Part shown: positions 9,591-22,369 of the stretch, one piece after another
How the letters are laid out: every line of letters begins with the position of its first letter
Numbering within the stretch: the first letter of the stretch is position 1
Source: a virus
Reading direction: 5' to 3' (one strand)
Virus record (IMG/VR): IMGVR_UViG_3300028557_000208
Location: 1-22,369 of that record
Length of the DNA stretch: 22,369 bases
Made by a program: the position numbers and the translations under genes
Notes under the pieces: generated by a model
Seen by the model: the letters and a program-made list of their open reading frames with translations, nothing else
Databases searched by the model: none
What the model was told of the DNA's origin: nothing

Positions 9591-9604
9591 TGTGGTTTTT
9601 TAGA

Positions 9605-9612
9605 TATTTATC
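9605..9612 (-). promoter_or_regulatory. T4-type late promoter, GATAAATA, overlapping a TGA stop
   Basis: The minus strand reads TGATAAATA. The TGA ends the DUF6165-like gene and its last two bases begin the promoter octamer. It lies 14 bases before the ATG at 9590. Confidence 0.65.
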
Positions 9613-9964
9613 AATATAATTTTATCTCTTGATATATTGATTGAGTTTCTTCGTTGATTTCTTTTTTGATTTGTGCTCTTAAGTCATTGGTGATATAAAC
9701 ACTTCTTGCAAGTTCTATAAACTCTTCATCAAACCTTTGTTCTTTTTCTAAAACTCTCAGGTCATCTTCAATCTTCCAAAGTTTTTGATTTATTTGAAAT
9801 AATTTTGTAAGATAAGAATCATTATAAACTTGAGATTCCTTTGCGATTTGAATGAGGTCTTGGAGTTCTTTTAAGACATATTGATTGTTTGTATATTGAG
9901 ACTTGATTGAGAGTATAGAAATCTTATCTAATAGTTCTCCTGTTGAGATTGGTATTTTTATCAT
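9611..9964 (-). CDS. DUF6165-like helical protein
   Basis: A 117-aa protein from ATG 9962-9964. The pattern MIKIPISTGELLDKISILSI, then KLWKIEDDLRVLEKEQRFDE and FIELARSVYITNDLRAQIKK is what I recognise as the DUF6165 family. That family is found in marine phages and in bacteria near glycan or sugar genes; its biochemical function is unknown. It is mostly alpha-helical, charged and without Cys. A TTG at 9971-9973 would add three residues and overlap the previous stop. The ATG is preferred because family members begin directly with 'M.KI.IS.GEL.DK'. It is the last gene of the block that starts at 14350, next to an oxygenase and close to a glycosyltransferase, consistent with a glycan-related role (inference). 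Confidence 0.78.
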   Translation of the reverse strand: MIKIPISTGELLDKISILSIKSQYTNNQYVLKELQDLIQIAKESQVYNDSYLTKLFQINQKLWKIEDDLRVLEKEQRFDEEFIELARSVYITNDLRAQIKKEINEETQSIYQEIKLY

Positions 9965-9969
9965 ATTTT

Positions 9970-10641
9970 TCAATCAGCAAACTCAACAAAAAAAACAATA
10001 ACAAGTCTAGAATCTTCCAACCCTTCTCCAAAATATTGACCTGGTGCATGATAATAATGTCCTGGATATATTACTACAGTGTTATATACATTTGGAACTT
10101 CATATTCAAAATCAAAATATTTTGTGTTATATTCAATTTTTTCTTTATTGAAAGATGAAATAATATCTTTATCTTTTGTAATAAAAGAAAGAACTTTGCT
10201 AGGTGGAATTGCTAGTTTATTCAAACAATTTTTTCTAAACAATTTGGTTCCAGAATTTTTTGGAGGATTTGGATTTAAATATATCACTCCGGAAAAAACT
10301 AAATTTTCTGAATTATTTTCATTCCAGACCGAATCCCTATGAATTAATCCACATTCATGTATAGATGTCGTTAAATGATATTTCATTTCTTGTATTCTAT
10401 ATTTATTTTTGGGATTTTGTTTATATTCAGAAAAATTTAAAATAGATTCTATTACTTTGAATTCAATATATTCATATAATTTTGGATTGATAATATGAAG
10501 ATTTTTACTTCTTATTCCTGGATAGTATTCACAATTATCATTAATTAAATCTTTATCAATAAATTGAGACAGACCAAATTCTCTAACACTATCAACATCA
10601 TGGTGTTCCTCAAAAAAATTATTAAACAAAACTAAATTCAT
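9970..10641 (-). CDS. Putative 2OG-Fe(II) oxygenase-fold protein (DUF6445-like)
   Basis: A 223-aa protein. Residues 98-103 (GLIHRD) supply a His101-x-Asp103 pair. SGVIYLNPNPPKNSGTKLFR follows at about 117-136. The C-terminal VVIYPGHYYHAPGQYFGEG and SRLVIVFF supply a distal His198 and Arg212. This is the HxD...H...R arrangement of non-haem Fe(II)/2-oxoglutarate enzymes on a double-stranded beta-helix. The 'YLNP.PP.NSGT.LFR' signature resembles DUF6445-type proteins. The substrate is unknown. The gene lies in the enzyme block between a 47-aa gene and the DUF6165-like gene. It is very AT-rich, and no late promoter is seen directly upstream. Confidence 0.75.
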   Translation of the reverse strand: MNLVLFNNFFEEHHDVDSVREFGLSQFIDKDLINDNCEYYPGIRSKNLHIINPKLYEYIEFKVIESILNFSEYKQNPKNKYRIQEMKYHLTTSIHECGLIHRDSVWNENNSENLVFSGVIYLNPNPPKNSGTKLFRKNCLNKLAIPPSKVLSFITKDKDIISSFNKEKIEYNTKYFDFEYEVPNVYNTVVIYPGHYYHAPGQYFGEGLEDSRLVIVFFVEFAD

Positions 10642-10671
10642 TATTTTTTACATTTCAATACTTATATATTA

Positions 10672-10815
10672 TTAAATAACATCAAAATATTTCATAATTT
10701 CTTTAATTTCTTTTTTCTCTATTTTTAAAACTCTTTGAATGTCATCTTCAGTATAATCTAAAAATTTTAACACTTTAAGAGTTTTTTTGAGATTTTCAAA
10801 TTCTGTTTCTTCCAT
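10672..10815 (-). CDS. Small hypothetical protein, 47 aa
   Basis: The frame from ATG 10813-10815 to TAA 10672-10674 reads MEETEFENLKKTLKVLKFLD, then YTEDDIQRVLKIEKKEI and a short tail ending YFDVI. It is Lys/Glu-rich and helix-prone, with no Cys or membrane segment. It lies 17 bases after the glycosyltransferase stop and 30 bases before the oxygenase start, filling an otherwise empty gap in the same orientation. It resembles nothing I can name. Coding potential is supported only by the open frame, spacing and helix-like composition, so it is a moderate call. Confidence 0.55.
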   Translation of the reverse strand: MEETEFENLKKTLKVLKFLDYTEDDIQRVLKIEKKEIKEIMKYFDVI

Positions 10816-10832
10816 TTTTATTTTGAATAAAC

Positions 10833-11810
10833 TTAATTATGAATCAAATATTCATTTTTGTCAATTTTATTTTCTTCAAAATCAAAGGTAGAATGAGATT
10901 CAATTTGCAGTATTATTTGTTTGTAATGTTTATACATTTCTTCTTCTGAAAATTCTACTCTTTGTTCATTCAACCTTGATGATAAGTTTGAAGAAAATCC
11001 ACTTATTCTCATCGTATCAGGATAAAATGGCAAATCTTTTTTGATAATATGAAAATCTTTTGGATAAGATACATTTGTTTCATGAGTTCCTGCAATAAAA
11101 ACAGATGCTTTTTGATTTACTGCTTTTGCCATATGTTGCCCACAACTATCACAACCAATAAAATAATCACAATATTGAATAATAGTTGCCCACTCTCTTA
11201 TTCCAACATCTGGATTTGGTATAAAAGTTTTTCCGTCATGAAGAGAAGAATCTCCCATATAAATTACGTTATAGTCTTCCATTAAAGAATCAACCAAATA
11301 TTCGTAAAAATCTTCAGGAATAGATCTATTGCTAAAATCAACAATTCCATAGTCTCTTTTATTTGCGGTGCTCCCATATGGTTGAATCACAATTGTTTTA
11401 TCCTTTCCTTGATTTTCTTTTGCAGTTTTTAAAACACTATATGCAATATCAACTTCTGCAGAAGAACAGAAAAAATCTAAATTTGGAAGATCTGAATGGT
11501 CTGTAGTCTTATTAATTTCAAAATCAAAAGACTCTGCCATAGAAATTTGATTTTTATAATATTCTGGAACTCTATATGGTTCTGGAGATATAACTTCTTC
11601 TGCATTCAACCAATAATTTTCAAATATTCCTTTTGTTTCTGAATGAAAAGATCTATTTTGAAGTTCGGGAATTCCCCAAAACAAATACTCCCATCCAGCA
11701 ACAATCACATACCATTCTTTATTTGGATTTAATCTGTGATATTTTAAAAGTGCCGGGATTGAGCAAAGAACTCTTCCTATTCCACCATCAATAAAAATAA
11801 TCGTACTCAT
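10833..11810 (-). CDS. GT9-like (ADP-heptose:LPS heptosyltransferase-like) glycosyltransferase
   Basis: A 325-aa protein. The N-terminus IIFIDGGIGRVLCSIPALLK matches the nucleotide-binding start of GT-B family 9 enzymes (GGIGD...PAL). The C-terminal half has TIVIQPYGSTANKRDYG, VIYMGDS and IIQYCDYFIGCDSCGQHMAK, with Asp221 and His226 in place of the family's 'DSG..H.A' donor-site motif; the Gly-Pro is changed to CG-Q. The family moves a sugar from a nucleotide-sugar donor to a glycan or lipid acceptor. The real donor and acceptor are unknown. It lies between a 2OG oxygenase (5-base gap) and a 47-aa gene. Decoration of a virion protein or host glycan modification are both possible. Confidence 0.82.
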   Translation of the reverse strand: MSTIIFIDGGIGRVLCSIPALLKYHRLNPNKEWYVIVAGWEYLFWGIPELQNRSFHSETKGIFENYWLNAEEVISPEPYRVPEYYKNQISMAESFDFEINKTTDHSDLPNLDFFCSSAEVDIAYSVLKTAKENQGKDKTIVIQPYGSTANKRDYGIVDFSNRSIPEDFYEYLVDSLMEDYNVIYMGDSSLHDGKTFIPNPDVGIREWATIIQYCDYFIGCDSCGQHMAKAVNQKASVFIAGTHETNVSYPKDFHIIKKDLPFYPDTMRISGFSSNLSSRLNEQRVEFSEEEMYKHYKQIILQIESHSTFDFEENKIDKNEYLIHN

Positions 11811-11815
11811 GTTTT

Positions 11816-12436
11816 TTAATTAGCAAATTGAATATAATTTCCATCTTGTAAGACATAATGAAAAAAAGATTGATGATAGTATGTATCATCATTTTGTGTT
11901 GAATTTTTTTTATCATGCCTTGATGGCAAGGGATCTCTCCAATGTGGTATTTGAATACCTTTATATACTATAGCATCTCCCGGATTTAATTGAACTGATT
12001 TTTCTTCTCCATACAGATTCATTAATTTAAAATCCCAATATTTTTTGAGATTAGATGAAATATGTAAACTACAAGAAATTTCACACTGCTCTTTATCCGT
12101 ATGTATTTTCAATTCTTGATTTGAAAAATAAAACCTATCATACCAATAAGTTGTATATAATTTTCTTCCTATAAAATTTTCTATTATTGATTTGATACTA
12201 AAACTAATATGTTGATATAGTGGAAAATTACGTCTAGCAGATGAATTTGGCACTTGTGATTCATCAGAAATTGAAATTAATTCACCAGATTTTTTTTGAT
12301 AGATTAAAACTTTGCCTTTAACTTCACCACTTGGAACTTCTGAATATAGAAGTGAGGGATCGCACAAATTTTTAATGATAAAAAATCCATGCTCTTCAAA
12401 TTTCTCATTATATGTCCATGAAATATTTTTATTCAT
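11816..12436 (-). CDS. Putative 2OG-Fe(II) oxygenase, second of three
   Basis: A 206-aa protein from ATG 12434-12436. Residues 110-121 (KIHTDKEQCEIS) give His112-x-Asp114. GDAIVYKGIQIPHWRDPLP gives distal His165, with Arg173 a candidate 2-oxoglutarate anchor. TTYWYDRFYFSNQ precedes the HxD as in prolyl-hydroxylase-like phage and bacterial enzymes. The substrate is unknown. A longer frame begins with TTG at 12470-12472, but the ATG is preferred. It lies four bases after the stop of the upstream oxygenase and has GGA about 9 bases before it. It differs strongly in sequence from the upstream oxygenase, so the two are not a recent duplication. Confidence 0.78.
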   Translation of the reverse strand: MNKNISWTYNEKFEEHGFFIIKNLCDPSLLYSEVPSGEVKGKVLIYQKKSGELISISDESQVPNSSARRNFPLYQHISFSIKSIIENFIGRKLYTTYWYDRFYFSNQELKIHTDKEQCEISCSLHISSNLKKYWDFKLMNLYGEEKSVQLNPGDAIVYKGIQIPHWRDPLPSRHDKKNSTQNDDTYYHQSFFHYVLQDGNYIQFAN

Positions 12437-12440
12437 AAAA

Positions 12441-13094
12441 TTATTTCCAACGTGGACCAATACACCATCCAACTAAAGATTTTCTTTGTCCTTTTGTAAC
12501 TTTTAAAACTCTATGTAACATTCTAGAATCAAAAATTATAAGAGTTCCTCTTTGCCTTGGAGCAAAATATGAGTCTTTTCCATCTAAAATTTGAAAATTT
12601 CCACCTTCATAATCATCAGCATCTGATAGCAATAAAGAAAAAGAAAGTTTTCTAACATGCTCTGTTTTAATTTGCAAGTAATTATAGTAATCATCAACAG
12701 TTTTTTCAAAAGTGGTAGATGAATTTGGACGAATAGATGCAACGTGAGAACTGTAATCATCGTCACTATGCCACTGGTAGTATTGCCCCTCACAATAAGA
12801 AGTGTATTGCATAGATTCGTTATCAATATTTGTTATATCATATTTAAAACATTCTTCATTTGCTCTACAGATATATGGCCATATAAAACCATGAGTCCAG
12901 TGAGTTGTTGGAATCCAAGCATTCTTTGAATTTCTTATTTTTTGATTTAAGTTATTAAAATTTTCATTTTTTATCTTTGAATCTTTAAATTCTTTATCAA
13001 AAAATAATAAATCATTTTCAATTGAATTACAAATTTCTAGTGGTAAATTTGTGTTAAACCATACATTAGAATTTCTATATTTTATCTTATTCAT
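12441..13094 (-). CDS. 2OG-Fe(II) oxygenase, prolyl 4-hydroxylase (P4Hc/PiuC)-like
   Basis: A 217-aa protein with a clear family signature. YYQWHSDDD has His109-x-Asp111. RKLSFSLLLSDADDYEGGNF is the conserved strand. RGTLIIFDSRMLHRVLKVTK, followed by GQRKSLVGW, gives distal His194 and Arg204. These residues bind Fe(II) and 2-oxoglutarate. The family hydroxylates prolyl or other residues and small molecules. Related genes are frequent in cyanophage genomes with unknown targets. Its ATG lies within the last codons of the Cys/His-rich protein gene (8-base overlap), so the two are likely translationally coupled. A virion-protein substrate is therefore a reasonable inference. Confidence 0.88.
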   Translation of the reverse strand: MNKIKYRNSNVWFNTNLPLEICNSIENDLLFFDKEFKDSKIKNENFNNLNQKIRNSKNAWIPTTHWTHGFIWPYICRANEECFKYDITNIDNESMQYTSYCEGQYYQWHSDDDYSSHVASIRPNSSTTFEKTVDDYYNYLQIKTEHVRKLSFSLLLSDADDYEGGNFQILDGKDSYFAPRQRGTLIIFDSRMLHRVLKVTKGQRKSLVGWCIGPRWK

Positions 13095-13896
13095 TCACGT
13101 TATCATTTCTTCCTGTAGATTTTATATGCACCCAACCAGGGCAACTAAACAACGTTGTGTGGTGGGATTCTCCCGAACTGGTATGAAAAGTTGCATCAGA
13201 TCTGGGAACAGTTGTTCCAAATACGTTCAGAGGAGATGGTACGAGTTTGCCAGAGTAAGAGGATTGCAAATATCCACTACAGCATCCTGATCCGGCAACA
13301 TTACAAACATCATAAAACACTCCGGCAGTATTATTAGTAGTAGTAGCAGCTGCACCGAGGGTTCCATTGGCACCATTTGAAGCTTCGTGTACATAATGAT
13401 CGTGCCCCTGGGGATTATGACTAACTCCTCCACCGTTTGCATTACATCCTGAAGTGGATGCACAAGATAGTATTCCTAAAGAACTATCTAGCAAATTACA
13501 AAAAAATGTTGAAGTTCTTGAGGCGCCAACAACTGAACACCCCGGTCTTTTAAAACACCAGGTTCCATTATTAAAACTGTTTACTTTTGAAAAAATGAAA
13601 GGACTTCCACATCCAGCGCCGCCACTTGCTCCACCGCCAGAACGGTTGCCCTCGCCATTGGGATGTCCCGACGACCAAGGGCCCACATTTGCACCGGCGT
13701 GAGTACCTGAAGCTTGAATTGCTACACATGCATCAACCATATCTTTGAGATTTGATTTTCCAACAAAACAATATTGACAGGTGCAACAAGAGGTAGTAGA
13801 TGTTACACCAGTTACGTTTGAGTATGAGTTTGTATTGAGTGTTAATTGGGTGTCTGAAATTTTTCGTAAAATTTTTGGTTTATTGGGTCTTGGCAT
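13087..13896 (-). CDS. Cys/His/Gly-rich protein of unknown family, candidate adhesin tip
   Basis: A 269-aa protein not recognised as a named family. It has 15 Cys (including SCCTCQYCF at residues 36-44 and GCC at 204-206) and 10 His. The His are concentrated in SHNPQGHDHYVHEASNG (159-175) and FHTSSGESHH (237-246). A Gly-rich segment lies at about 77-97 (GHPNGEGNRSGGGASGGAG). No signal peptide or membrane helix is seen. The HxH motif recalls metal-binding tips of T4-type long and short tail fibres, but one HxH is weak evidence. A good ribosome site (GAGG, 9 bases before the ATG) overlaps the end of the chaperone-like gene. Local base composition at 13600-13710 is strikingly GC-rich for this genome. 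A metal-stabilised or disulfide-rich adhesin is inferred from neighbours. Confidence 0.7.
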   Translation of the reverse strand: MPRPNKPKILRKISDTQLTLNTNSYSNVTGVTSTTSCCTCQYCFVGKSNLKDMVDACVAIQASGTHAGANVGPWSSGHPNGEGNRSGGGASGGAGCGSPFIFSKVNSFNNGTWCFKRPGCSVVGASRTSTFFCNLLDSSLGILSCASTSGCNANGGGVSHNPQGHDHYVHEASNGANGTLGAAATTTNNTAGVFYDVCNVAGSGCCSGYLQSSYSGKLVPSPLNVFGTTVPRSDATFHTSSGESHHTTLFSCPGWVHIKSTGRNDNVNE

Positions 13897-13897
13897 T

Positions 13898-14350
13898 TTA
13901 TATTACCTCAAATAAAAGTTTTGCATCGTAAAACAATTTTTCAATTTGTTGTTCTGATTTTGGAATTTCATATTCTCCTTTCAAAACTTTTTCTGGCAAA
14001 TTTCTCAACCAATCTCTATAAGATTTAAATTTCAATTTAGACTCAGGTGAAATTGGATAATCTTCAATCATAGTAATATCACTTTGATTAAGTTCAAGAT
14101 TTCTGAAATTTCTGAGAATATTGATATAGTGTTCATCTGAATAATCATTTAATTCATATCTTAAATTTTCAGAATTCCACGATAAAAATTGTAAAATATT
14201 ATCATATTCTGGTATAGTATATGGTCCAGTGTAACCACACAATTCCAATTCTTCTTGTGTAAAATTATCTGTTCTGGTTCTTCCGTCTGGAAGAATCAAC
14301 ATCACAACTTCTTTAGGAGTTTCTCCATTTTTAGAATAAAGGTTAGTCAT
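13898..14350 (-). CDS. Tail-fibre assembly chaperone-like protein (Phage_tail_APC-like)
   Basis: A 150-aa protein. Its middle (residues about 77-119) reads like the tail-assembly chaperone family in which '..R...L..tD.t.l.D.pls.e....w..YR..LR.lP' is conserved: LELNQSDITMIEDYPISPES, then KSYRDWLRNLPEKV. The N-terminal part has LPDGRTRTDNFTQEELELCG and YTGPYTIPEYD, typical of the same marine phage proteins. These chaperones are usually adjacent to the fibre or adhesin they help fold, which here would be the Cys/His-rich protein one base downstream. GAGGA lies about 9 bases before the ATG. It is the first gene of the eight-gene block. Confidence 0.75.
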   Translation of the reverse strand: MTNLYSKNGETPKEVVMLILPDGRTRTDNFTQEELELCGYTGPYTIPEYDNILQFLSWNSENLRYELNDYSDEHYINILRNFRNLELNQSDITMIEDYPISPESKLKFKSYRDWLRNLPEKVLKGEYEIPKSEQQIEKLFYDAKLLFEVI

Positions 14351-15096: not shown

Positions 15097-17445
15097 TTAT
15101 TTAGTATTTTTAAGTTCTTCAATTTGTTTCTGTTGTTCTTTCACTGCCTCAATCAGAACTCCAATCAGACCATTATAGTTGACTGATTTTACATCACCTT
15201 GAGTTACAAGTTCTGGAAGTACTTCTTCCAATTCTTGTGCAATCACACCATAAGAACTTCTACCAGTTTCTTTCCAATCAAATGAGACACCACGAAGTTG
15301 TTCTGTGATTTCTAATGCATTTCCTACTGTGCGAATATTCTCTTTGAGATTTATATCACTAGTAGAATTAAAATCAACTGCAGTCATAGCCCCCGTAGAA
15401 GGGTTATAAGTCAGTTTTGATGTTGAGATGCCTGATGCAGTAATAGTTCCTGATGTAGTTGCAGTAAAGAGTGGGAAGAACTCTTGGTTTGTTGTTGTAT
15501 CATCAGCAACAGTAGAACCAGCACCAGTCAGTCCAGAACCATTACCAACAAAAGATGTTGCTGTTACTACACCAGTAACATTAATACCTGATGAATTGAT
15601 TGTAACTCCACTACCAATCACCGCAGAAGTAGTAACATTAAGAATTCCTGTGGTGATTGCAGTACTTACAATATTTGCAGTATTTGCAATACCGGTTAGA
15701 TTTGCTCCAGAACCAACAAAAGATGTTGCTGTTACTACACCAGTTACATTGATATTAACACCACTTAAATTAGTAATAGTCCCAGAAGTGCTATTCAGTG
15801 TTGTAATAGTTCCAGCAGTACCAGAAATATTAGTAATAGTCCCAGAAGTGCTATTCAGTGTTGTTAATGTAGAAACTCCAGTAATACTAAAACCAATATT
15901 AGAAGTATTTCCAGTATTTAAAACTGCTTGTAAATTTGGACTTGAAGCAGTACCAGTCAGATAAGTACCATCACCATAATAAGTAACGATGCCTGATGTT
16001 GCAGTAATAATACCAGAGACAATCTTAACAGTACCAATCGTTGCTGCAGTGCCAGTCAGGTTTGTTATGGTTCCATTGGTAATAGTTCCATTGGTACTAT
16101 TAAAAGTCGTAATGGTTCCCACACCGGCATTCACATTTCCAATAAATGTAGTTGCAGTAACGATACCAGATGAGTTTATATTTCTTACAACTGCTAAATC
16201 ATTTTGTGTAAACTGAACATTACCAGCAGCCAGTCTTGTACCTAATGGAAATTGAGTACTACCAATACCAACAGCATAGTTGATCAACCAAGCATCAGTT
16301 CCAAGTCCGGCAAAAGTACCAGACTTAAACCACATTATTTTCTTATATGTTGGTGGGTTAGTCTCAATCCCAGCAATGAATAACTGAACTAATGGTGTTC
16401 CTTCAGTAGATGCAAGTGCAACACCACCGTGATTTGCAGTATTATCATTAGAAACATCATTACCACTTCCGTCGGTTCTAAATCCAAGAACAATATCAGG
16501 GTCTGATATTTTAAGTTCGGTTGTAAATAAAGTCGCAGATGTTCCACCAATCGTAATGTTTCCATTCACATTTAAGTTACGATTAACTAATAAATCTCTT
16601 GTAACTGTTACGTCTTGTGGTGCAGTAAATTGATTGGGAACACTTAAAGTTGGTGTAGAACCTTCACCAGAAGTTACACTTACACTAATCTGGTTTGAAG
16701 TTCCGGTAATGTCTCTTACATAATCACCGGTTGTATCAGTTCCAAGTCCAACACTATTTGGTTGTATTGTTGCTGCTAATGATACATTACCAGTTCCATC
16801 AAAACTGATTGGAGAAGCAACAACATCACCAGTAATCTCAAAGGTTCTTGGTGTAACTAGTTGTGTTGCGGATGCTGCAATACCACTGACTGCACCACTA
16901 AATGTAGTTGCAGTTACAACACCAGTAATTCTTGCATCACCAACAACGTGAAGTTTTGATGTTGGATTTGTAGATCCAATACCAAGATTACCAGAAACAT
17001 AAGTCCCACCAGTGACTTGAAGTCTTTGTGATGCTGTTCCTGTAGAAGTACCAGAACCAATTAGTACTGGTCCATTGGTGAATGTAGAGATTCCACCAAC
17101 CGTAAAATTGGTAACTGCGATTCCGGTTGCGTTCAATGTCGCAATCGTACCAATACCAGTTACATTGAGGTTGGTGCTTCTTAAATTGGTACTATTAAAA
17201 GTCGTAATAGTTCCTGCAGTACCAGTAAGATTGGTACTGGTCAGATTGGTAACAATACCAGTTGTAATCGTTGCAATACCAGAAACATAAAGGTTCGTTA
17301 CACCAATCCCACCACTAACGTGAAGAGTGTATTGTGGATTTGTGGTACCAATACCAACCTTATCAGTTACAATATCGGCAAAAATGAGATCGGTATTTAC
17401 CTCCAATCCATTTTTTATGACGAAATTCTTATTGATCGCAGCCAT
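15097..17445 (-). CDS. Tail fibre with C-terminal peptidase S74 intramolecular chaperone domain
   Basis: A 782-aa protein. The head (1-60) has FVIKNGLEVNTDLIFADIV and VGIGTTNPQYTLHVSGG. A second GIGSTNPTSKLHV motif lies near 152. Then come ATQLVTPRTFEITGDVV and a FDGTGNVSLAATIQPNSV module, TTELKISDPDIVLGF..., and long NGTITN/LNSTSGTITN repeats. The C-terminus (about 690-782) is a peptidase S74 domain: SDINLKENI with the expected Ser696 and Lys701 dyad, SYGVIAQELEEVLPELV, VNYNGLIGVLIEAVKE and a final helix. S74 domains trimerise and fold phage fibres, then cut themselves off just before the serine. A mature protein of about 695 residues is predicted. A late-promoter-like site lies 31 bases upstream. 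Confidence 0.92.
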   Translation of the reverse strand: MAAINKNFVIKNGLEVNTDLIFADIVTDKVGIGTTNPQYTLHVSGGIGVTNLYVSGIATITTGIVTNLTSTNLTGTAGTITTFNSTNLRSTNLNVTGIGTIATLNATGIAVTNFTVGGISTFTNGPVLIGSGTSTGTASQRLQVTGGTYVSGNLGIGSTNPTSKLHVVGDARITGVVTATTFSGAVSGIAASATQLVTPRTFEITGDVVASPISFDGTGNVSLAATIQPNSVGLGTDTTGDYVRDITGTSNQISVSVTSGEGSTPTLSVPNQFTAPQDVTVTRDLLVNRNLNVNGNITIGGTSATLFTTELKISDPDIVLGFRTDGSGNDVSNDNTANHGGVALASTEGTPLVQLFIAGIETNPPTYKKIMWFKSGTFAGLGTDAWLINYAVGIGSTQFPLGTRLAAGNVQFTQNDLAVVRNINSSGIVTATTFIGNVNAGVGTITTFNSTNGTITNGTITNLTGTAATIGTVKIVSGIITATSGIVTYYGDGTYLTGTASSPNLQAVLNTGNTSNIGFSITGVSTLTTLNSTSGTITNISGTAGTITTLNSTSGTITNLSGVNINVTGVVTATSFVGSGANLTGIANTANIVSTAITTGILNVTTSAVIGSGVTINSSGINVTGVVTATSFVGNGSGLTGAGSTVADDTTTNQEFFPLFTATTSGTITASGISTSKLTYNPSTGAMTAVDFNSTSDINLKENIRTVGNALEITEQLRGVSFDWKETGRSSYGVIAQELEEVLPELVTQGDVKSVNYNGLIGVLIEAVKEQQKQIEELKNTK
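15098..15105 (-). promoter_or_regulatory. Variant late promoter, ACTAAATA
   Basis: The minus strand reads ACTAAATA within the last codons and TAA of the 782-aa gene, 30 bases before the ATG at 15067. It lies in a 17-base sequence repeated exactly at 17468-17484, which supports a functional element despite the C at position 2. Confidence 0.5.
15769..15864. repeat. Exact 36-nt direct repeat with 60-bp period
   Basis: 15769-15804 and 15829-15864 are identical 36-mers separated by 24 bases and keep frame. They encode the LNSTSGTITN units in the 782-aa fibre. Perfect identity suggests recent unequal exchange or gene conversion. Confidence 0.85.
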
Positions 17446-17476: not shown

Positions 17477-17484
17477 TATTTAGT
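17477..17484 (-). promoter_or_regulatory. Variant late promoter, ACTAAATA
   Basis: The minus strand reads TAACTAAATA. The last base of the stop of the 791-aa gene is the first base of the octamer. It lies 31 bases before the ATG of the S74 fibre. The surrounding 17 bases (17468-17484) repeat exactly at 15089-15105. Confidence 0.5.
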
Positions 17485-19859
17485 TAATTTACAACTCTTA
17501 AAACAACCTTTGCAGTTCCTGTTGATCCACCTTGTTGTGTGGAAATCACTGTGATCGAACCATCAGTATATCCACTTCCTCCCCCACCTCCACCATTTAT
17601 TCCACCATTTCCACCTGTTGCACCATTTCCACCTCTACCACCATTTGTAGTTCCATCTCCTGCAGTTTCATTAATTCCATAACCTGCCTTAAATCCTCTT
17701 GCGATTGAACCAGTATTAGTCAGTATCGTTCCATTAGACAATCTAAATTGTGTAGTTCCCACATCTAGACAAGCACTGAACCCTTGTTGTCTCCAATAAA
17801 CACCTCTATGACACGATAAAACTCTTCCACCATTTGGAGAAACTGCTTTTGTATCTGGAGACACTGCAGTTAAGTTCGTTGCCGAACCAAAAATTCCGTT
17901 TGCGGGTAAATTTCCTGCAGTAATAATTGTACCACCAGATCCATTATCTCTTCCAAATCCGGATTGACCACCAATATTTACTCCTCCACCAAAACCACCT
18001 TTACCCGAAGTTCCTGCATTTCCTCCACCACCAACAGCAGCAATTAAGTTTGCTTTTCTATAAAGAAATGGTGCATTAATACTGCTTATAAGTCCTGCAA
18101 TTACATATTCGGTGTTTCTTAACATTGTAAATCTTATTCTAGAAAATCCACCCTCACCACCAGCATAAGAACCTTTATCGGAACCCTTTCCACCATAAAG
18201 ATCCATTTCAACATTAATGTTTCTATCTGGAGCATAAAAACTATATAAGTTTGTGCTTAAATTTTCCACAATATCTGTAGAAGTAACTAAAAATTGATAG
18301 TCACCATTAAATAAATTAATTGTAGAAATTAATGCAGTAGTATTTGTGATTGCCTCTACATTTATATTAAATTGTTGAGTGTCTGATACAGTAGCAAAAT
18401 TTACAACATTAGAAATAATTGGTGAGTTTGTTGCATTAATGTTTGAAACAACACATCTTATTGTTTGTATACCAACAATATCTGATTTGATTGTAAGTAT
18501 CGGAGTTTTAGTTCCAGATACTGTTGTATTTCTAGTGGTTGTTGTTGCAGTTGTAGATACTGCGGTGTATTTGAGATTAGCATACCCACTGCCACCATTT
18601 GTCCATTGACTTTGTAATGTGGACAATTCAGGACGATATTTGCTTCCACCACCTGAACCTCCTCCACCACCAGAACTATTATCTTCTCCTGCTCCGCCAC
18701 CACCTCCTCCGGTAGCACCCCCCCCTCCTCCACCACCACCAGCACCATCACCACCCTTATCTCCACCGGTTCCACCACTTGTTGTTTGAATTGTTGATGT
18801 AGTGGCATCAAAACCTCCACCACTACTTCCACCAGAACCAGATGCATTGAGAGAACCACCACCACCACCTCCACCACCGGCAGCACACATTACAAGAAGA
18901 GATCCATCAATCACACCAGAGGCAGAACCCCCACCTCCTCCACCACCAGACCAACCACTCTCACCGGCACCACCACCTCTACCTCCAGGTGCAATATTAC
19001 TTAAACCAGCACTACCATAGGCACCAAAGTTTCCAGTACCTCCACCATTTCCACTACTGCCAACAATAAAAGATAAAGTTCTGGTTGTTCCTGATACGTA
19101 TGTAAATTTTCCAACACGGCCAGAACCTCCTCCACCACCAGATCCACCACTATCACTTCCACCCCCACCACCTGCGGAACCAGCAATTGTTATTTCTATG
19201 TTTGTTGCACTTGCTGGTAATGTAACTGTAGCACTACTTGAATAATTAAATTCTTGTGGGGTGGCAACTGTTGTAGATGTTGTTGTGGATGAAACAATCA
19301 CACCATCATCAACATTTTGACCATTCAATTGCCACTGATAAGATACACCAGACCCAAAAGAAGTATCAGTTAAACTTGCATCAATATTAAAGGTCGTATT
19401 TGTATTTAAAATTGCCTGACCATCTGTTGGTTGTGCAATAACTTCTATTAAAGGATATACTGTGAGAATACCTACAGTAGAACTTAATGGATCATTAATT
19501 GCATTTCCAGTTGAACGTGCCGTACCTGCAGTGACTGGTGATGATGATTGATATGCAGAGGGAACATAATCTGCAGTAAGAAAAAATCTTCTATTATTAT
19601 CAGTAGGAGTAATTAAATTTGTAATCGTAAGTGTTGTAGTTGCAGTTCCAGTTACATTTGTGCTATTGCTTAATGGTCCAACATCAGATTCATACCACTG
19701 ATATGCGATACTCCCAGTTCCAGATGCTGTTGCAATTCCAGTAAAAGTAGCAGTTCCTCCTCCGGTTGATCCAATACTAACACCAGTAGATGCAACACCA
19801 ACAGGATTTTGAGTAAATGATAAAATAGGTCCGTTTAGATCTAAAGTTGTTTGTTTCAT
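17484..19859 (-). CDS. Ig-like / glycine-rich adhesin candidate
   Basis: A 791-aa protein. Ig-like beta-sandwich sequence at about 10-135 has SIAYQWYESDVGPL, TTTLTITNL and FFLTADYVPSAY. A second Ig-like unit starts at about 136 (GVSYQWQLNGQNVDDG, 171-186) and appears to resume at 451-490 (PILTIKSDIVGIQTIRCVVS, then NSPIISNVVNF). A glycine-rich domain of about 225 residues lies between (TVTLPASATNIEITIAGSAG, then many GGGGGG runs). Another Gly-rich domain spans about 555-790, with a Cys683/Cys697 pair (VLSCHRGVYWRQQGFSACLD). Gly-rich domains of this kind occur in phage receptor-binding proteins, where they can form polyglycine-II helix bundles. It follows the giant structural gene by 11 bases and probably shares its transcript. 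Receptor binding is inferred. Confidence 0.85.
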   Translation of the reverse strand: MKQTTLDLNGPILSFTQNPVGVASTGVSIGSTGGGTATFTGIATASGTGSIAYQWYESDVGPLSNSTNVTGTATTTLTITNLITPTDNNRRFFLTADYVPSAYQSSSPVTAGTARSTGNAINDPLSSTVGILTVYPLIEVIAQPTDGQAILNTNTTFNIDASLTDTSFGSGVSYQWQLNGQNVDDGVIVSSTTTSTTVATPQEFNYSSSATVTLPASATNIEITIAGSAGGGGGSDSGGSGGGGGSGRVGKFTYVSGTTRTLSFIVGSSGNGGGTGNFGAYGSAGLSNIAPGGRGGGAGESGWSGGGGGGGSASGVIDGSLLVMCAAGGGGGGGGSLNASGSGGSSGGGFDATTSTIQTTSGGTGGDKGGDGAGGGGGGGGATGGGGGGAGEDNSSGGGGGSGGGSKYRPELSTLQSQWTNGGSGYANLKYTAVSTTATTTTRNTTVSGTKTPILTIKSDIVGIQTIRCVVSNINATNSPIISNVVNFATVSDTQQFNINVEAITNTTALISTINLFNGDYQFLVTSTDIVENLSTNLYSFYAPDRNINVEMDLYGGKGSDKGSYAGGEGGFSRIRFTMLRNTEYVIAGLISSINAPFLYRKANLIAAVGGGGNAGTSGKGGFGGGVNIGGQSGFGRDNGSGGTIITAGNLPANGIFGSATNLTAVSPDTKAVSPNGGRVLSCHRGVYWRQQGFSACLDVGTTQFRLSNGTILTNTGSIARGFKAGYGINETAGDGTTNGGRGGNGATGGNGGINGGGGGGSGYTDGSITVISTQQGGSTGTAKVVLRVVN
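18635..19185. repeat. Low-complexity Gly-codon tract (ccacca/cctcct on + strand)
   Basis: Clusters of ccaccacc and cctcctcc on the plus strand encode polyglycine runs of up to eight residues in the adhesin. Glycine codons are mixed (GGT, GGA, GGG, GGC), so the runs are maintained at the protein level, though slippage is still possible at the c-tract near 18719-18727. Confidence 0.7.
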
Positions 19860-19870
19860 TTTACTTTGTT

Positions 19871-22369
19871 TTAGTTAGCAAAGTTTTGACCGACAACCAC
19901 TCCATAAAGTCCTACACTGGTAATATTACTACCATCAAAAGTTTTAAAGATGTAAATATCAGAACGACTTGCTGTTGGAGTTACAATCGGAAGAACACCA
20001 CCACCAGGCCAATAAACAGGAATTGTAGCATTAACAGAATCCCTAAAGGTATCAATACCAACAGTACGACCACCTGTAGAATCCTGATCTATTTTAATCG
20101 TAAATTCAGTGGATGCAGAAGGAGGGTTGAGTAGATTAAACTGATTAATATTACTTGTTGCAGTACAAATAAATGATTGTGCCTTAGAAAGGTCTATGGT
20201 TACCTGATTTGCAACAACCGATAAGTATTCTATATTTTCACTATATGTCTTAAATCTTGTGTGACCTTCTATATCAAGTTTTGCTCTTGGTACTGTAGTT
20301 CCAATTCCAACAGAAGTAGAATCTGTTGTAATTATGGTTCCACCAGTACCAACATTAAATGTTGTTGCAGTAATAATACCTGCACGAATGTTACTTGATG
20401 AACCATCTAATCGGAATGATGTGGAGGTCAGCATTCCACCAACGACTACATCTTGAGTCGTTGTAAATCCTGCAAAGACTGCTCTACCATTCACATAAAG
20501 TGAAGTTGATGATGAACCAACAGCACCAAGTTCCAAATTAAATCTTGGAACAGAAGTACCAATACCAACATTATTCAGTGCAGTATTGTATATTCCTCCG
20601 GTTATTTGAGTCCATCCAAGTGCAGCAGCATTTAGGTTTATAAGAGAACTACCATCACCAGAGAAAAAAGATGCAGTAATTGTTCCACCAATATTTGTGT
20701 TTCCATTCACATTCAGTTTAAATTGATTTGCAGTCGTTCCAATTCCAACACCACCAGTTGCATTCACAGAGAAGAGTGAAGAACCTGCACCGATTACAAG
20801 TCTAGAGGTTCCTGCACTGGTGGTTGCAATACCGACACGATCAAAAATCATATGATTTTCAGTTTTAGAAATGCTTATATTTCCAAAACGATACCAATCA
20901 TTTTCTAGAGTATAAATCCAACCAACATATCCACCCCGATTTGGGTCTGCATAATATGCAATATCTCCAGGATTTCCTGAAACTGTTGGTTGTGTGACTC
21001 CAACAGTATATTTACGTGATACTGTTGCATCTCCCTGAAGGAAAATACTATTTGCCTCAATTCCATCAGGTGCATTTGAGGTAATCTTTTGATTGAAGAT
21101 TACTGGACCATCAAATTCAGAGATGAGTGTCCCGTCTGTTCCACCCTCAACACGAATCGAACGAGAAACTGAAATTTCAAGAGGAGTCAGGGCATCAAAT
21201 CCGACACTCACTGCAGATAAAATATCTTCTCCGGTCACAGTCGGAATTGGAGAATCAAAGACCTGTTCTTGTCCTGTTGCAGAGTTTACTTTCTTATTTC
21301 CCACATAAAATGCACCACGATCATTCATTCCTGTAAATACAACCAGACCACCATTCACTTTGGTGGATTGTGAGAGTAGTTCTTCTTGATCTGATAGAAC
21401 TCTATCTTGACGATCTGGGAATGCCGTAGAATAGTTTCCTGGACCAAATCCAACATACTCAAAGGTATGTCCAGATGCACGAATAATAGAGTGTCTTCTT
21501 AATTCAATCGGACGAAGTTTAATTCTACGAACAACAGAACCATTATTGTGAGAAGTTGCATTAGTACCATAAATCCCTCTAAATACTGATATTGGATTGG
21601 TTATATATCCAGGTCCACTAACATTGCTGGTAGAAGGTGATGATTTTATTCTCATTATTTCAGAATCAATCAACAAATAATCTCCAATATTCAAATCTAA
21701 ACTGGTGATATTTGTAATATTAAAATTAGCAGTCGTTGCATCATTAATTGCAGAAGAAAGAGTTGTTGTAATCCCTGCATATTGTGGTTCCAATCTTCCG
21801 GCAATATTCTCATCTTCCGGAGTAACTGTTCCCCCTTGTGATCCAAATGCCTTGATATAGATTGTTTTTGCTCCTGTTGTGGCCGGAGATGTGGTTCCGA
21901 TTCCAACAAAGGTTTCGAATTGAACCAGACTATTGACTTTTTTAACCAGAAAATCTGAATTAAAGAGAGAAGAGTTTGCTCCACCAATGGTAATTTTATT
22001 CCCAACTGTTAATCCGTGATTCTGAATCGTGGTAATCGTTGAGATTCCAGTTACATTATTATAAGTAAGTGTAGTAATATCAATTGATTTCCCTGCATTA
22101 ATTGCTCGTGAATATGCAGTTACAGTAACTCCAATTCCAGTCGTAGAGGCATTTCCAACTGCTGATGCAGATTGGACCTGAAGTTGTTTTATATTTCCGG
22201 TTGCAATACCAGTGATTTTATAGACAGTATTATAACCATCCAGAGCAGCAGGAACCACTCCGGCAACTGTGAGACATTCTCCAATATGATTATAAACTCC
22301 GGTTACAGTTACATATCCTTGCACGAATCCAGAAGTTGTTGCGACTCCAACAACCGCAAGAGTATTTCC
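19871..22369 (-). CDS. Giant structural/fibre protein, N-terminus outside window
   Basis: The frame is open to the right edge (it begins ..GNTLAVVGVATTSGFVQGY), so the start lies outside. An internal GTG at 22322-22324 is not a credible start. The visible 832 residues include LTVGNKITIGGANSS, GDYLLIDSEIMRI, SIIRASGHTFEYVGFGPGNY, NGGLVVFTGMNDRGAFYVGN, GWIYTLENDWYRFGNIS, several GIGTT.P..KL.V fibre motifs, and a C-terminal domain with VTIDLSKAQSFICTATSNI, VYWPGGGVLPIVTPTASRSD and IYIFKTFDG. The combination is characteristic of very long structural proteins of marine T4-like phages. It lies first in the visible transcription order. The exact position in the virion is unknown. Confidence 0.88.
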   Translation of the reverse strand, partial: GNTLAVVGVATTSGFVQGYVTVTGVYNHIGECLTVAGVVPAALDGYNTVYKITGIATGNIKQLQVQSASAVGNASTTGIGVTVTAYSRAINAGKSIDITTLTYNNVTGISTITTIQNHGLTVGNKITIGGANSSLFNSDFLVKKVNSLVQFETFVGIGTTSPATTGAKTIYIKAFGSQGGTVTPEDENIAGRLEPQYAGITTTLSSAINDATTANFNITNITSLDLNIGDYLLIDSEIMRIKSSPSTSNVSGPGYITNPISVFRGIYGTNATSHNNGSVVRRIKLRPIELRRHSIIRASGHTFEYVGFGPGNYSTAFPDRQDRVLSDQEELLSQSTKVNGGLVVFTGMNDRGAFYVGNKKVNSATGQEQVFDSPIPTVTGEDILSAVSVGFDALTPLEISVSRSIRVEGGTDGTLISEFDGPVIFNQKITSNAPDGIEANSIFLQGDATVSRKYTVGVTQPTVSGNPGDIAYYADPNRGGYVGWIYTLENDWYRFGNISISKTENHMIFDRVGIATTSAGTSRLVIGAGSSLFSVNATGGVGIGTTANQFKLNVNGNTNIGGTITASFFSGDGSSLINLNAAALGWTQITGGIYNTALNNVGIGTSVPRFNLELGAVGSSSTSLYVNGRAVFAGFTTTQDVVVGGMLTSTSFRLDGSSSNIRAGIITATTFNVGTGGTIITTDSTSVGIGTTVPRAKLDIEGHTRFKTYSENIEYLSVVANQVTIDLSKAQSFICTATSNINQFNLLNPPSASTEFTIKIDQDSTGGRTVGIDTFRDSVNATIPVYWPGGGVLPIVTPTASRSDIYIFKTFDGSNITSVGLYGVVVGQNFAN

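Follow-up and report, generated by a model that had tools for sequence, protein, structure and literature searches.

Motifs of the HxH type hold iron in the fibres of phage T4, and the same has been proposed for marine phages (PMC11705849, PMC10579305). In T4 gp37 a series of such motifs binds seven irons. The gp38 adhesins of the T2/S16/PP01 type are Gly-rich proteins of ~250-270 aa, encoded by a separate gene of the fibre cluster and hypervariable between relatives. In the available part of the report on the myocyanophage Pam3, the fibre gp24 has a glycine-rich distal domain and is encoded next to its chaperone gp25, which is Mu TFA-like, and no Cys/His cluster of gp24 is mentioned there (PMC9608196). 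Tail fibres of the pelagimyophages and cyanomyophages are encoded in a hypervariable cluster for host recognition, and such islands also hold non-fibre genes (PMC7029224).

The stretch of DNA analyzed here (the window) is a 22.4-kb virus record (22,369 nucleotides). Its ORF 13087-13896 is encoded within a tail-fibre/host-recognition cluster and adjoins an assembly chaperone gene. Like the tips of the T4 gp37/gp12 type, the product has a conserved HxH and, as proposed here, would take a distal position on a fibre; unlike them it is Cys-rich, comes from a separate small gene, has one conserved HxH instead of a series, and is without a sequence match or a profile match to the phage tail collar domain (PF07484). 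It resembles the gp38 adhesins in length, Gly content, separate gene and variability, but its Gly residues form no regular glycine-rich motifs, it is rich in Cys and His, and it follows a PF16778 chaperone; neither a gp38 family profile nor any other known adhesin family in Pfam or PHROGs matched it. With Pam3 it shares the cyanophage fibre with a chaperone gene alongside and a likeness to the glycine-rich distal domain of gp24, and it differs in the family of the chaperone and in having no match among the phage records searched. The coordinates of the features are summarized in Table 1.

Table 1. Features of the tail-fibre cluster in the window, and of a second Cys-rich family in other viruses
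Feature	Position	Strand	Remarks
Cys/His/Gly-rich protein, proposed fibre-tip adhesin	13087..13896 (incl. stop)	minus	269 aa; ORF, composition, relatives L008 and L108
CC.C..C cluster, residues 37-43	13768..13788	minus	C43 alone conserved in relatives
His cluster, residues 160-170	13387..13419	minus	three members agree at H160, P162, H165, H167; candidate metal site of HxH type
C-terminal CPGWVH, residues 252-257	13126..13143	minus	invariant in three members; holds X-Pro-Gly
Tail-assembly chaperone (PF16778)	13898..14350	minus	Pfam E 1.2e-8; immediately upstream of ORF 13087-13896
2OG-Fe(II) oxygenase (PF13640, 2OG-FeII_Oxy_3)	12441..13094	minus	Pfam E 3.8e-12
Second gene after the slot; 'ferrochelatase' by PHROG label	11816..12472	minus	similar gene in second fibre module of G001
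Small protein, 124 aa	14388..14762	minus	upstream of chaperone; conserved partner in L008, L108, L111, L112, L116, L119
Tail fibre-like protein	15097..17445	minus	PHROG baseplate-wedge and tail-fibre families; upstream in same run
Gly-rich virion structural-type protein	17484..19859	minus	phrog_24848, also phrog_29022 and phrog_2155
Fibre protein	19871..22324	minus	51% identical to Synechococcus phage S-SM2 fibre; 92% in relative G003
Second Cys-rich family	L111:6613-7323, L112:1772-2353, L116:6486-7049, L119:6425-6994		directly after chaperone; no Pfam match

The resemblance of its fibre protein to that of S-SM2, and an oxygenase up to 53% identical to cyanophage oxygenases, place the virus among the relatives of the T4-like cyanomyophages. 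A protein similar to the 124-aa product is present in S-SKS1. One base separates the stop of the chaperone gene from the ATG of ORF 13087-13896, and the oxygenase gene overlaps the 3' end of the ORF by 8 bases. No terminator-like site was found between the three genes, which is in keeping with a single transcript. A 33.8-kb contig (G001) shares 18.8 kb of identical sequence with the window; in its second fibre module (L142:11863-14262) the gene of a Gly_rich_2 protein precedes another 2OG-Fe(II) oxygenase gene and one similar to 11816-12472. The 'ferrochelatase' label of the latter looks doubtful, as Pfam shows no ferrochelatase domain.

The 269 residues include 15 Cys (37, 38, 40, 43, 57, 96, 114, 120, 133, 145, 151, 198, 205, 206, 252), 10 His (66, 78, 160, 165, 167, 170, 238, 245, 246, 257) and 36 Gly. 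Cys makes up 5.6%, about ten times the mean of the other 20 window genes (0.52%; mean His 0.82%). Relative to these genes the binomial P is 2e-11 for at least 15 Cys and 9e-5 for at least 10 His. Against a generic background of 1.2% Cys the P is 1e-6, and the His content is unexceptional when 2.3% is taken as background (P 0.09). Shuffling the sequence placed four Cys within 7 residues in ~2.7% of cases and four His within 11 residues in ~2.7%; given the composition, the clusters as such are only mildly unlikely. The earlier note's counts and its positions for the CC.C..C and HxxxxHxHxxH clusters were reproduced on the minus-strand ORF, as was its placement of the gene between a fibre chaperone-like and a prolyl-hydroxylase-like gene (PF16778 and PF13640 by Pfam). 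It had called the Cys and His content extreme, which is borne out for Cys, an outlier in the window, and less so for His.

The earlier note had recognized no family, and profile searches gave the same outcome: ORF 13087-13896 had no real match in Pfam, PHROGs or PDB sequences, and tblastn with E values up to 10 gave none among 50,697 phage records. A Pfam match to NADH_4Fe-4S (E 0.095) lay under the family's cut-off and was discarded. One relative, L008 of IMG/VR, was found by a composition screen of loci fetched via the neighbouring oxygenase, and another, L108, by a genome scan with a two-sequence profile; the scans of viral contigs and genomes yielded only these two and two contigs identical to the window, and 54 further genomes related to that of L108 held no additional member. 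The L008 protein had four weak Aeromonas matches at E 6 by tblastn. Identity to ORF 13087-13896 is 29-35% for L008, depending on the alignment, and 37-38% for L108, while the two relatives are of equal length (251 aa) and 74% identical. Judged by these relatives ORF 13087-13896 is a real gene, because they share the start MPxPNK, the end CPGWVH and the gene order, and the three sequences form a small, previously undescribed family (n=3). All three loci have the same four-gene order, with the family gene between the PF16778 chaperone and the 2OG-Fe(II) oxygenase. AlphaFold2 runs on the three sequences as monomers, with either one first, gave pLDDT 27 and 33 and no fold. Oxic seawater, assumed as the setting by the earlier note, is not established, and L108 lies on a contig of an assembly from Lake Lanier, a freshwater reservoir. 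The contig is of phage type but was binned in a bacterial genome (MAG LLD_282), and is probably a virus contig within the bin.

The DNA of G003, the contig of L008, is 89% identical to the window over 19492-22369 and mostly 82-100% over 9600-12600 in 150-base blocks. Between these tracts the protein identities run, in order, from the fibre at 92% through 43, 36, 41 and 65% to the chaperone (53%), ORF 13087-13896 (29%) and the oxygenase (62%), followed by 86 and 98%. The 29% compares with 53-98% for the genes from the chaperone to 10833, and in all three pairings the other three cassette genes are better conserved than the family gene. A divergence peak of this kind is what a receptor-binding tip encoded in a host-recognition cluster would be expected to show; part of it could come from the ends of recombined tracts. 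A diversity-generating retroelement was considered because the protein is rich in C/S/G/N/H, and no match to RVT_1 (reverse transcriptase) was found in the contigs behind L001, L002 and L008, all of which are fragments. The same run of genes holds a DUF6445 (9970-10641) and a DUF6165 (9611-9973) gene, 84% and 93% identical in G003.

A search with the chaperone alone retrieved further viruses in which the slot after the chaperone could be compared. The adjacent gene is a LamG-like fibre in S-SKS1 and relatives, a tail-collar fibre (collar by Pfam) with HDH and HQH motifs in L126, and a short Cys-rich protein in L111, L112, L116 and L119. In S-SM2 and S-MbCM6 a fibre-like or Gly-rich protein precedes the oxygenase. 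The second Cys-rich family (23 Cys in 236 aa in L111, 10-13 Cys in the others) resembles ORF 13087-13896 in being short, Cys-rich and located right after a PF16778 chaperone, with a 2OG-Fe(II) oxygenase as the next gene in three of four loci. It differs in having almost no His and, in three of four, an end containing [SA]FRC; with no similarity at the profile level (hhalign probability 0.1%), homology was rejected. Seven of the ten ORFs with at least 4% Cys in 22 loci sit directly after the chaperone (Fisher 1.5e-5, indicative only, since the Cys-rich gene or its composition had been the basis for including three of the loci); in loci picked by the chaperone alone the figure is four of six.

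The residues invariant in the three family members include H160, H165, H167, H257, C43, C114 and C252, but not C37, C38, C40 or H170. His retention is 47-95% against a mean identity of 32-74%; His and Gly are retained more often than the average residue, Cys as often as it. At ~35% identity, that both relatives retain three of the four cluster His carries no significance by itself; with H160 and H165-x-H167 invariant in three of three members, the cluster is a plausible candidate metal site. It is unlikely that CC.C..C and the other cysteines form a defined framework, crosslinked by disulfides or binding metal, that locks a virion part after lysis in oxic water. A very high Cys content as such recurs in every member (15, 10 and 11) and in the unrelated Cys-rich proteins that occupy this slot elsewhere (10-23), yet in the comparisons with ORF 13087-13896 the identity at Cys is 27-35%, the overall identity being 32-37%, and in the pair of relatives it is 76% against 74%. 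A shared framework would keep its columns, whereas five differ between L008 and L108 (C/Y, T/C, C/N, S/C, Q/C); the family alignment is uncertain at ~35% identity, and these changes are still seen in the 74% identical pair of equal length. Cys columns conserved no better than average argue against a fixed disulfide or metal-Cys scaffold in the three-member family, and the protein was not assigned to the disulfide-rich or Cys-metal scaffold class. The two metal sites suggested by the earlier note are thus reduced to a plausible one at the His cluster, only C43 of CC.C..C being kept.

It is improbable that the product serves fibre assembly as an accessory chaperone or other factor and is missing from the mature virion. 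The gene adjoins the PF16778 chaperone, and T4 fibre chaperones are absent from mature particles (PMC9608196), but a chaperone is already present next door and is better conserved (53% against 29%), an assembly factor would be expected to diverge more slowly than a tip, and the composition is Gly-rich and loop-like. A non-structural protein of the island, for example one that handles metal or works with the adjacent 2OG-Fe(II) oxygenases, would agree with the non-fibre genes known from such islands (PMC7029224), the 8-base overlap with an iron enzyme gene and the high Cys and His; it is quite unlikely, as no enzyme family in Pfam or PHROGs matched the ORF, its Cys are not positionally conserved and the slot genes of other phages are of fibre type.

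ORF 13087-13896 thus probably encodes a chaperone-linked distal receptor-binding adhesin tip of one tail fibre, because of the slot after the chaperone, the divergence peak and the other adhesin types in the same slot; we infer its virion location, receptor binding, trimeric state and metal. The adhesin-tip role put forward in the earlier note is thereby supported, as is a location in the tail-fibre cluster from the flanking chaperone and fibre genes; of the metal stabilization, the His site stays plausible and CC.C..C does not. In a T4-like, cyanomyophage-related virus the tip would be translated directly after the chaperone, whose probable task is to fold it or attach it to the fibre. Its fast divergence among close relatives would stem from contact with the host surface, and its Gly/Ser/Asn/Cys-rich stretches are probably variable surface loops, most cysteines being lineage-specific loop residues instead of a family scaffold. 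A metal ion may be bound by the conserved H160...H165-x-H167 and add rigidity to the tip; as in HxH fibres, its likeliest place would be the threefold axis.

A wider scheme is speculative and has little probability: short Cys-rich tips in the chaperone slot, here also His-rich and metal-binding, would recur as a class among T4-like aquatic phages and would have evolved at least twice, with the oxygenase modifying the tip (e.g. at the invariant Cys-Pro-Gly) and tip chemistry, not only sequence, deciding adsorption. Gene order is what suggests the link between oxygenase and tip, and we know of no established target of the cyanophage 2OG-Fe(II) oxygenases. A separate ORF, L009:3682-4932 (416 aa, 143 Gly), has many NPG/SPG/TPG repeats and a weak collagen match; a 2OG-Fe(II) oxygenase is encoded three genes further on.

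If confirmed, the protein would offer, in an aquatic T4-like phage, a receptor-binding tip with bound metal that is open to testing, and would bear on the proposal of iron-carrying phage fibres (the Trojan Horse idea). The slot would be a place where unrelated Cys-rich proteins are exchanged, and the tip a possible substrate of the cyanophage 2OG-Fe(II) oxygenases.
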